DNA from: Crossiella sp. SN42
Lineage (GTDB): Bacteria > Actinomycetota > Actinomycetes > Mycobacteriales > Pseudonocardiaceae
NCBI RefSeq assembly: GCF_023897065.1
Contig: NZ_JAMHIV010000040.1
Coordinates: 1 to 64,000, forward strand
Length of the DNA: 64,000 nt
Direction of reading: 5' to 3'
The notes under the pieces are model-generated. The model worked only from the letters and a program-made list of their open reading frames with translations. It was not told the DNA's origin and did not search any database. Shown piece after piece: positions 58,879 through 61,470 of the stretch. Every line of letters begins with the position of its first letter. Positions within the stretch are counted from its first letter, which is position 1. The translations under genes were made by a program, and so were the position numbers.

Positions 58879-59841
58879 TTAACGTCGGCCCGGCGGACAG
58901 ATGGCGTCGATCTCAGTGAGGTCCGCCGCAGTGGGCGCCCACTCCGCGGCCGAGGCGTTCTGGGTGACCTGCTCCGCGCTGGTCGCGCCCGCGATCACCG
59001 AGGCCACTGCGGGCTGCGCGGCCAGCCAGCCGATGGCCAGCTCCACCATGCTCAGGTCCCGCTCCTCGGCGAAGCGGCGCAGCCGGTCGATCCGGTCCCA
59101 CGGCGCGTCCGCGAGCAACCGTTCCCTTCCGGCCAGGCGACTGCCCTCCGGCGGCTTGGTGTCCCGGTCGTACTTGCCCGTGAGCAGGCCGTTGGCCAGC
59201 GGGAAGTAGGGCAGCAGGCCCAGGCCGAAGCGCAGGCAGGCCGGGATGATCTCGCGCTCGGACTCGCGTTCCAGCAGCGAGTAGTGGTTCTCCGCGGACA
59301 CCGGCGCGGTCAGGTTCGCGGCGCTCGCGCTCCAGCTCGCGTCCGCGATCTGCCAGCCGGCCAGGTTGCAGTGCCCGACGTAGCGGATCTTGCCCTCGTG
59401 CACCAGGTCGTCCAGCACGGACAGCGTCTCCTCCAGCGGAGTCAGCGGGTCCGGCCGGTGCAGCTGGTAGACGTCGATCCAGTCGGTGCCCAGCCGCCGC
59501 AGCGAGGACTCCACCGCGCGCCGGACGTAGCGGCGGGAACCGCGGGCGCCGAAGTCGGGGCCGTTGGTGCCCTGCATGTCCATGCCGAACTTGGTCGCGA
59601 TCACCGCGTGCTCGCGCCGCCCGGAGAGGGCCTGGCCGAGCAGCTCCTCGCTGCGCCCGCGCGGGGCGCCGTAGACGTCGGCGACGTCGAAGAAGGTGAT
59701 GCCGGCCTCCAGCGCGGCATCGACAACCGACCTGGCGCCCGCCAGCGTCTCGGTCGCGGTCCCCGGCCGCCCGAGGTTGTTGCAGCCGAGCCCGACCGCG
59801 CTGACCACCAGCCCAGAATCACCCAACCGTCGTTGGTCCAC
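58879..59841 (-). CDS. Aldo/keto reductase
   Basis: A 320-residue TIM-barrel NADPH oxidoreductase. The tetrad is visible as Asp52 and Tyr57 (FFDVADVYGAP), Lys84 (IATKFG) and His in YQLHRPD. The GLGCNNLGRPG start and the C-terminal AGATSAEQVTQNASAAEW cofactor loop are standard. Substrate unknown. GTG start. The 332-nt spacer upstream carries the large palindrome, so an RNA initiated beyond it would include that structure in its leader. Confidence 0.92.
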   Translation of the reverse strand: MDQRRLGDSGLVVSAVGLGCNNLGRPGTATETLAGARSVVDAALEAGITFFDVADVYGAPRGRSEELLGQALSGRREHAVIATKFGMDMQGTNGPDFGARGSRRYVRRAVESSLRRLGTDWIDVYQLHRPDPLTPLEETLSVLDDLVHEGKIRYVGHCNLAGWQIADASWSASAANLTAPVSAENHYSLLERESEREIIPACLRFGLGLLPYFPLANGLLTGKYDRDTKPPEGSRLAGRERLLADAPWDRIDRLRRFAEERDLSMVELAIGWLAAQPAVASVIAGATSAEQVTQNASAAEWAPTAADLTEIDAICPPGRR

Positions 59842-59963
59842 GAGCGTGCACCCTACGTGTCGAGTGACATTCCAGTCACTCCCCGTTCACAGTCGTGACC
59901 GGAGCCACCGAACGGTTGGCTGGCCATCCCCGTGCTGCGGTGTCAGGATGCGCCCGAACGGGT

Positions 59964-60130
59964 CAGGTCCTCCTCCCGTGGATCTTGCACGCGATCGTCG
60001 GAGTCCAGTCCGTCCCCGGCGGCACCGCCGGAACGACCAAGTACGCCCAGTACGAGGCCGCTCCGGCGGCACCGCCGGGAACGGACTGGACTCCGACGCT
60101 CACGTACAAGATCCACGGGAGGAGGACCTG
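59964..60130 (-). repeat. 167-bp near-perfect palindrome (long hairpin)
   Basis: Arms 59964-60046 and 60048-60130 are reverse complements around 60047. The outer 24 bp match perfectly (CAGGTCCTCCTCCCGTGGAT begins the left arm). I count 10 mismatched pairs in the 78 bp outside the central loop. Seven are C/A pairs on the plus strand, so they become G-U in a minus-strand RNA; the other three pair on neither strand. It lies 122 nt upstream of the aldo/keto reductase start and 41 nt upstream of ugd. It could be an RNA element, a MITE-like insertion or a palindromic terminator. Confidence 0.9.
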
Positions 60131-60171
60131 TTCGCCCGAGGACCAGAACCAACCCAACGCGGGGGTGGAGT

Positions 60172-61470
60172 GTGTTCGCACGGCGAATCGTCGTCGTCGG
60201 ATCCGGATACGTCGGCCTGACCACCGGCGCCTGTCTCGCCTCACTGGGGCACAAGGTCATCTGCGCCGATGTGGACGCGGCCAAGGTGGCCCGGCTCAAG
60301 GCCGGTGAGGTGACCATCCTGGAGCCGGGGCTGGCCGAGCTGGTGCAGTCCGGGCTGGCCGCGGGGCGGCTGGAGTTCGTCCTCGGCGCGCGGCACGCGG
60401 TGGAGGGCGCCGAGGTGGTGTTCCTGTGCGTGCCCACGCCGATGGGCGAGGGTGGCGCGGCGGACCTGGCCGCGGTGGAGTCGGTGATCGCCGAGGTGCG
60501 CGAGCTGCTGCCCAGCGGGTGTGTGGTGGTCAACAAGTCGACCGTGCCGGTGGGCACCGCGGCCAGGGTGCACGAGCTGCTGGACCGGCCCGACGTGGCC
60601 GTGGTCAGCAATCCGGAGTTCCTGCGCGAGGGCACCGCGGTGCACGACTTCCTCAACCCGGACCGGATCGTGGTCGGCTCCAGCGCCCAGGACGCGGCCG
60701 AGCGGGTGGCCGCGCTCTACGCCAAGCTCGGCGCGCCCACCGTGTTCACCGACGCGCCCAGCGCGGAGATGGTCAAGTACGCGGCCAACTGCTTCCTGGC
60801 CATGAAGCTGTCCTACGTCAACGCGATGGCCGAGCTGTGCGAGCGGCTGGGCGCGGACGTCGGCGACGTCACCGAGGGCATGGGCTACGACCGCCGGATC
60901 GGCCAGTCCTTCCTGCAGCCCGGCCCCGGCTGGGGCGGCTCCTGCCTGCCCAAGGACACGCACGCGCTGGTGCAGGTGGCCGAGGCGGTGGACTTCGACT
61001 TCATGCTGCTGCGCGCCTCCATCGACACCAACACCCGGCAGCGGGACCGGATGGTGGACAAGATCCGCGCCGCGGTCGGCGGTGAGCTGAGCGGCGTGCG
61101 GCTGGCCGTGCTGGGCCTGGCGTTCAAGGCGGGCACCAACGACCTGCGGGACTCGCCCGCGCTGGCGGTGGCGGAGAAGCTGCGCGCCGAGGGCGCCGAG
61201 CTGGTCGCCTTCGACCCGGGCATCCCGGCCGCGGTGCCCGGCGTGACCGACGCGGTGCGCGTGGTCAGCGATCCGTACCAGGCGGCGGACGGCGCGGTGG
61301 GCCTGGTGCTGCTCACCGAGTGGCCGGAGTTCCGCACCCTGGACTGGCCGAGGCTGGCCGGTCTGCTGGCCGGGAAAGCCGTGGTGGACACCAGGAACCT
61401 GCTCGACGCCGACGTGTTGCGGCGGGCCGGGCTGGCCTGGCACGGGGTGGGGCGTAGCCCGGTGGCGTGA
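60172..61470 (+). CDS. ugd: UDP-glucose 6-dehydrogenase
   Basis: A 432-residue enzyme oxidising UDP-glucose to UDP-glucuronate in two NAD+-dependent steps, for capsule and glycan precursors. The Rossmann start RIVVVGSGYVGLTTGACLA is clear. The catalytic Cys258 lies in GGSCLPKDTHA and Lys202 in EMVKYAANCFLAMK. The C-terminal domain contains LGLAFKAGTNDLRDSPA. GTG 60172 is preceded by GGGGGTGGAG. No other glycan gene is adjacent. Confidence 0.95.
   Translation: MFARRIVVVGSGYVGLTTGACLASLGHKVICADVDAAKVARLKAGEVTILEPGLAELVQSGLAAGRLEFVLGARHAVEGAEVVFLCVPTPMGEGGAADLAAVESVIAEVRELLPSGCVVVNKSTVPVGTAARVHELLDRPDVAVVSNPEFLREGTAVHDFLNPDRIVVGSSAQDAAERVAALYAKLGAPTVFTDAPSAEMVKYAANCFLAMKLSYVNAMAELCERLGADVGDVTEGMGYDRRIGQSFLQPGPGWGGSCLPKDTHALVQVAEAVDFDFMLLRASIDTNTRQRDRMVDKIRAAVGGELSGVRLAVLGLAFKAGTNDLRDSPALAVAEKLRAEGAELVAFDPGIPAAVPGVTDAVRVVSDPYQAADGAVGLVLLTEWPEFRTLDWPRLAGLLAGKAVVDTRNLLDADVLRRAGLAWHGVGRSPVA

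Follow-up and report, generated by a model that had tools for sequence, protein, structure and literature searches.

Introduction

Hairpin-forming MITEs are already known from several bacteria. RUP of Streptococcus pneumoniae, as described in the passages cited here, is 107 bp long, has IS630-Spn1 as its proposed mover and yields transcripts that are predicted to fold (PMC2229807, PMC3049150). The same passages describe ERIC/IRU and Correia/NEMIS as TA-ended MITEs of 100-200 bp that form long RNA stem-loops and exert orientation-dependent effects on cotranscribed genes (PMC2229807, PMC3049150). REPs are given as 20-40 bp in the cited part of a further source (PMC3733652).

In the current study, we analyse a palindrome at positions 59964..60130 of a 64,000-nt stretch of DNA from Crossiella sp. 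SN42 (the whole stretch is called the window below). It belongs to a small mobile DNA element with copies in many soil actinobacteria. Two traits by which IS630-type MITEs are recognised are found in its family, namely many short, dispersed copies and a duplicated TA (clean in six of 13 comparisons), whereas identity with a REP element was considered and rejected on size, about 165 bp against 20-40 bp. An earlier, sequence-only reading of the window had held that the fold is kept as a minus-strand RNA, belonging to a gene leader or attenuator, an independent small RNA or a mobile palindromic element.

Geometry and fold of the hairpin

When position 59964+d is paired symmetrically with 60130-d, 71 of the 83 pairs are Watson-Crick and 12 are mismatches, two of which lie in the 5-nt loop. 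A recount reproduced exactly what the sequence-only reading had described, that is, 83-nt arms around 60047 with 24 perfect outer pairs and ten mismatches outside the loop, of which seven are C/A on the plus strand and none is G/T. The seven C/A mismatches, which are G-U pairs on the minus strand, are at 59988/60106, 59992/60102, 60014/60080, 60023/60071, 60024/60070, 60033/60061 and 60036/60058; the remaining three are, on the plus strand, T/C (59995/60099), A/A (60039/60055) and A/G (60040/60054). The runner-up palindrome centre of the 64-kb window pairs at 45 of 83 positions, and the mean over all centres is 24.2 (sd 4.9). Repeat detection returned the same palindrome with 81-nt arms, 88% complementarity and a 5-nt spacer. 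The features are as follows.

59964..60130, minus strand: whole hairpin element, 167 bp; both the apical motif and the G-U pairs are on the minus strand (repeat detection, folding, comparison of copies).
59964..59987, no strand: outer arm with 24 perfect pairs to 60107-60130; putative terminal inverted repeat by its position (matching transposon end not found for this subtype).
60107..60130, no strand: opposite outer arm; the terminal TA of other copies is CA (left) and TG (right) in the window copy.
59988..60106, minus strand: hairpin core; of its ten non-loop mismatches, seven are G-U on the minus strand (symmetric pairing).
59995..60099, minus strand: span of the one A/G mismatch, between 59995 and 60099; subfamilies A, B and C recurrently have a purine mismatch close to this point.
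60023..60071, minus strand: span of the tandem wobble (60023/60071 and 60024/60070), 5'-UG-3'/3'-GU-5' on the minus strand.
60037..60057, minus strand: apical motif CC-UC-GUAC-UGGGC-GUAC-UU-GG, written on the minus strand (folding, comparison of copies).

Folded as RNA, the minus strand reaches -173.4 kcal/mol and the plus strand -147.9 kcal/mol, against shuffle means of -75.3 and -66.3 kcal/mol, respectively; none of 200 shuffles was as stable on either strand. Folded as DNA, the minus strand is again ahead (-98 vs -86.2 kcal/mol), and by this DNA folding G-T outranks A-C in DNA hairpins also.

Copies in the same genome

The search for further copies that had been suggested from the sequence yielded many, both here and across related genomes. 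The element and its apical motif were used as queries against the 9.72 Mb and 82 contigs of the own genome (G000), and the matches were then folded. Twenty-one full copies were extracted in this way, comprising 12 of subfamily A (to which the window copy belongs), eight of subfamily B and one of type C. An end-sequence search with CTAGG[T/C]CGTGTC added subfamily D, with 17 full or near-full copies of 88-100% identity plus fragments, which brings the total to at least 38 copies, each about 165 bp long, in four subfamilies. Ten contig ends (C2, C4, C10, C22, C23, C27, C29, C45, C60 and C67) lie inside D copies or within 10 bases of one; such palindromes seem to interrupt the assembly, which makes the copy number a lower bound. 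All folded copies (the 21 of A, B and C, and seven of D) share one architecture: a near-complete palindrome of 160-170 nt, topped by the apical motif CC-UC-GUAC-YGGGY-GUAC-NN-GG or a variant, with the motif strand as the better folder. Shortened forms are also present. L013 is a deletion form of the element, L021 (around 1501) is an approximately 50-bp form of subfamily A, and L415 (around 674) is an approximately 30-bp palindrome with little beyond both ends.

Across the 21 own copies, standard pairing reaches 97.0% over 52 consensus pairs, compared to 83.6% for 500 shuffles and no more than 48.6% for slid controls, and two-sided changes occur at 30 consensus pairs. Covariation on the minus strand, proposed earlier as a check, is 0.455 vs 0.213 in shuffles. 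The tandem wobble 5'-UG-3'/3'-GU-5', a type that is stable in RNA, is found in 82 of 110 copies, including the window copy, and a tandem A-C in none of the 110. One middle-stem position is U-G in 95 of 109 copies, the window copy being an exception with U-A. An apical loop and wobble motifs are found again and again, from the family to which the window belongs as far as Streptomyces.

Distribution in other genomes

A covariance model, R1, was built from the 21 own copies (A, B and C). Own genome included, it matched 70 of the 200 family genomes, spread over 23 of 46 genera (E<=0.001), and 21 of the 394 class genomes, from 5 of 138 genera (E<=1e-6), counts that are lower bounds because only 13 or six candidates were scored per genome. 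A loop-only pattern found at least 116 stretches in the named genomes, and the genera among the matches listed include Amycolatopsis, Prauserella, Actinophytocola, Actinocrispum, Streptomyces, Kitasatospora, Streptacidiphilus and Actinocrinis. Phages gave no match to the element, and three actinomycete plasmids gave partial matches. The 2.35-Mb plasmid record of Streptomyces sp. NBC_01450 (NZ_CP109481.1) holds seven partial likenesses, the best of which coincides with no annotated feature. Against Rfam 15, the eight matches of the window stretch (seven miRNA families and one Pseudomonas sRNA) were all below the gathering score, and no Rfam family reached its gathering cut-off at 16 loci with copies.

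Empty sites and TA duplication

The site of the window copy is uninterrupted in two genomes of the same genus (G001 and G002) and in G073, which is labelled as the same species; a further genome, G003, was not alignable there. Among 17 sites compared in G073, nine are empty, two hold the same element (L003 and L010), two hold other sequence (L005 and L038) and four were left without assignment (L018, L019, L020 and L042). At the L005 site, G073 has repeated CGTGTTGGCC / GGCCAACACGG stretches where G000 has the hairpin (G073:C1:5422546-5422694, L228/L229), possibly another palindromic insertion.

Filled and empty sites could be compared in 13 cases. Six of these (L006, L011, L017, L035, L038 and L057) are clean, with a single TA at the empty site and TA on both sides when filled, although the right flank of L057 differs past the TA. 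The other seven, among them the window copy, are one-sided, decayed or ambiguous (L001, L003, L004, L008, L010, L014 and L019). In place of TA/TA, L008 has GA/TC and the window copy CA/TG, mirror changes that suggest arm-to-arm correction after insertion. Such correction could produce two-sided changes with no RNA involved.

Transposon ends and IS630-type partners

The sole match to PF13358 (IS630-type) in the own genome is L088, whose inverted ends are CTAGTGTCCTGAGTCGTTAGTTCG. The start of subfamily B, CTAGTGTCCTGAGTCGGAAGTTCG, matches these ends. The same element as L088 is present in G073 (L256) with a 375-aa frame; the reported open frame of L088 itself (G000:C14:79135-79389) is 238 aa, vs 375 in this near-identical element. 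By eye, the ends of L257 (CTAGTGTCCTGCGCCGGAAATTCG) match hairpins L152, L161 and L243 of other genomes, and those of L272 (CTAGTGCTCTGTCCATGAACGTTGG) match hairpins L157, L200 and L202, again of other genomes. Three end types thus match distinct IS630 elements, indicating that the outer arms vary with the transposon and one core is common to all. In the four genomes searched, no autonomous partner was found for the end type of the window copy, and five of 12 hairpin-bearing genomes (G001, G002, G140, G103 and G124) had no PF13358 match.

To see whether the autonomous IS630 itself contains the core, R1 was run against 31 PF13358 loci; one strong match was obtained, L258 (54 bits), which is a short hairpin with the apical motif. 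Weak matches were L257, L263, L273, L269, L255 and L252. The presence of the hairpin core in L257 and L263 was rejected, as these matches are a different hairpin lacking the apical motif. This other strong hairpin (GCACGCGGGGCGCTTTCGTGCGCG...) lies beside or inside IS630-type elements of G139 (L257:1188-1238 and L263:758-808).

One strand keeps its fold

In 110 copies retrieved with the structure model, the loop strand carries 1024 G-T mismatches vs 93 A-C; G-T is in excess in 109 copies and A-C in one (L156). This set comprises the 21 own copies and 89 from relatives, 109 of them distinct, with orthologous G073 copies retained; L119 (a duplicate of L009) and L248 (no hairpin at the guessed centre) were left out. 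Its strand was picked by folding energy, and on inspection the picked strand bears the apical motif in the listed 110. Because the set came via a model of the loop strand and may favour G-U pairs, a second set was collected by the loop pattern alone; in it the motif defines the strand, and the palindrome was required to have at least 40 pairs, as it did at 96 of 109 usable sites. Here the loop strand has 743 G-T vs 183 A-C, with G-T exceeding A-C in 91 of the 96 copies, and is the better folder in all 96. The skew is lower than in the model set (4 to 1 vs 11 to 1). The 13 sites with fewer than 40 pairs stand outside these totals, and in at least two of them (L303 and L388) the loop strand is not the better folder. 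Among 18 distant copies from the class search, G-T is more frequent in 17 and tied in one, and seven subfamily D copies have 55 G-T vs 1 A-C, both of which are weaker evidence since the strand was picked by energy. The sequence-only reading had put the chance of its seven one-way mismatches at 1 in 128, a figure that is weak by itself (one copy, with a pre-stated strand); the strand argument behind it holds on the family-wide counts. An even balance of C/A and G/T in copies from other genomes, which it had named as contrary evidence, is seen in neither the 110 nor the 96 copies.

To assess the influence of mutation bias, 109 copies were aligned and linked in a minimum spanning tree, and their pairing was derived by plain self-alignment of the DNA. 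One-sided changes between close copies pass through G-U and stay clear of A-C in both directions. On edges that differ by at most 15% (39 of 108), C/T changes lie opposite G in 54 cases and opposite A in none, while A/G changes lie opposite T in 46 and opposite C in four; Fisher p is 2e-7 for the C/T contrast and 4e-22 for the A/G contrast, values that are only indicative since the copies are related. The corresponding counts are 27/0 and 27/3 on the 24 edges of at most 10%, and 256/6 and 170/24 on the 94 edges of at most 25%. C-to-T damage explains the C/T contrast but not the A/G contrast, and damage alone is thus insufficient. The mismatch data are most simply read as selection acting on the loop strand in its folded form. 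The conservation of the fold across copies suggests, on statistical grounds, that the folded molecule itself matters.

Neighbouring genes

The element lies between a divergent aldo/keto reductase gene, 123 bp upstream of its start, and a nucleotide-sugar dehydrogenase gene, 41 bp upstream of the likely start. Flanking genes were called with a simple codon-composition rule and expressed relative to the folding strand. For the 110 copies, the pairs are (-,+) 33, (-,-) 33, (+,-) 25 and (+,+) 16, with three uncalled; in the second set (n=83), they are (+,-) 38, (-,-) 19, (+,+) 15 and (-,+) 4, with seven uncalled. An antisense orientation bias, apparent in the first set (33 to 16, p 0.02), was dropped in view of the second (19 to 15, p 0.61). 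No promoter-like site and no terminator-like site (stem plus T run) was found in 59800-60300.

Interpretation and rival explanations

We consider it probable that the palindrome is an IS630-moved MITE in which one strand of the core is selected to fold, likely as RNA, in the service of the element itself. The window copy would be a non-autonomous MITE of approximately 165 bp that IS630-type transposases mobilise; the outer arms would act as terminal inverted repeats, and insertion would have taken place at TA, often within CTAG, as is shown for some of the other copies. In the conserved core, the counts above point to selection of one strand for a near-unbroken hairpin with a recurrent apical loop and wobbles; the folded strand would most likely be RNA, made by read-through or antisense transcription. 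What that RNA might do is more tentative. The apical loop and wobbles may form a docking or processing site that aids the element's own persistence and spread rather than the neighbouring genes, a proposal that we regard as possible, if less than even. Rather unlikely, in our estimation, is the broader idea that the core is a folded RNA module parasitising several IS630-type elements, its ends changed to suit each, across Pseudonocardiaceae-like genera and Streptomycetaceae; such a module would persist through the binding of its RNA to a host or transposase protein and would be the bacterial equivalent of RNA-cored short interspersed elements.

The same mobile element could instead be selected as single-stranded DNA that folds during transposition, replication or DNA uptake and is recognised by a protein, comparable to IS200/IS605 and REP. 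That the minus strand is the better folder as DNA too speaks for this, as does the lack of a consistent sense orientation to neighbouring genes, which makes it hard to see when the strand would be transcribed; yet a duplicated TA and ends like those of IS630 are signs of a double-strand DDE mechanism, and the recurrent tandem wobble is of the RNA-stable type, so we judge single-stranded DNA unlikely as the selected molecule. Two further accounts dispense with selection for a folded molecule. Arm-to-arm correction by template switching, combined with an element-linked, strand-biased mutation that leaves G-T and not A-C, would fit the mirror end changes of L008 and the window copy and the frequent C/T changes opposite G, but a C-to-T bias does not predict the 46-to-4 preference of A/G changes for T over C. 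Moreover, insertions occur in both orientations, so that a bias of the genome strand cannot track the element strand, and apical loop and wobble positions recur across genera; we hold this account to be very improbable. Less likely still is the notion that wobbles keep the DNA palindrome imperfect and thereby protect it from palindrome nucleases or deletion. The analysed copies do have several mismatches as DNA, but a spacing that would break up a cruciform is not supported (the longest perfect run has a mean of 17.8 vs 14.7 under random placement, and is shorter in 32 of 109), and the direction of the mismatches is left unexplained, which makes protection of this kind highly improbable.

The role that the sequence-only reading had named first, a leader or attenuator of the aldo/keto reductase, fared worst, whether extended to a terminator or to the other adjacent gene. 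The distances to the two flanking starts would suit it; however, G001, G002 and G073 lack the element at this site, each of the four gene orientations occurs next to other copies, and the absence of both a consistent sense bias and a promoter- or terminator-like site makes such a role unlikely, to the point that we give it almost no credence. Of its other two suggestions, an independent small RNA would be possible, and a mobile palindromic element is borne out by dispersed copies, empty sites, TA duplication and, for three subtypes, IS630-like ends, and its claim that the minus-strand fold is kept agrees with both copy sets.

Comparison with known systems

No description of the element was recognised in the literature searched, which excluded most subscription papers and all preprints. 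We would call new the combination of a common core under different ends with a strand-specific constraint on the fold. The two differently retrieved copy sets provide quantitative evidence of selection for the fold of one given strand, and if the folded molecule is RNA, it would represent a widespread structured RNA, absent from Rfam 15, in genera including Amycolatopsis and Streptomyces.

The element resembles RUP, as far as the cited text describes the latter, in being small and non-autonomous, with TA ends and with ends similar to those of an IS630-type element (PMC2229807, PMC3049150). Unlike RUP, from which it is set apart by description rather than by sequence comparison, the actinobacterial element is approximately 165 bp long and almost fully palindromic, has one core with several end types, and shows a strand-specific fold statistically. 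ERIC/IRU and Correia/NEMIS, in the passages cited, are likewise TA-ended hairpin MITEs of similar size; those passages name no partner transposon end, whereas three subtypes of the actinobacterial element match IS630 ends, and the hosts differ, a comparison that is again one of descriptions and not of sequences. With the REP, BIME and REPIN sequences, which go with RAYT transposases, the element shares dispersed palindromes and imperfect pairing, but REPs are 20-40 bp long and depend on single-strand transposases, while the actinobacterial element has approximately 165 bp and a TA duplication.
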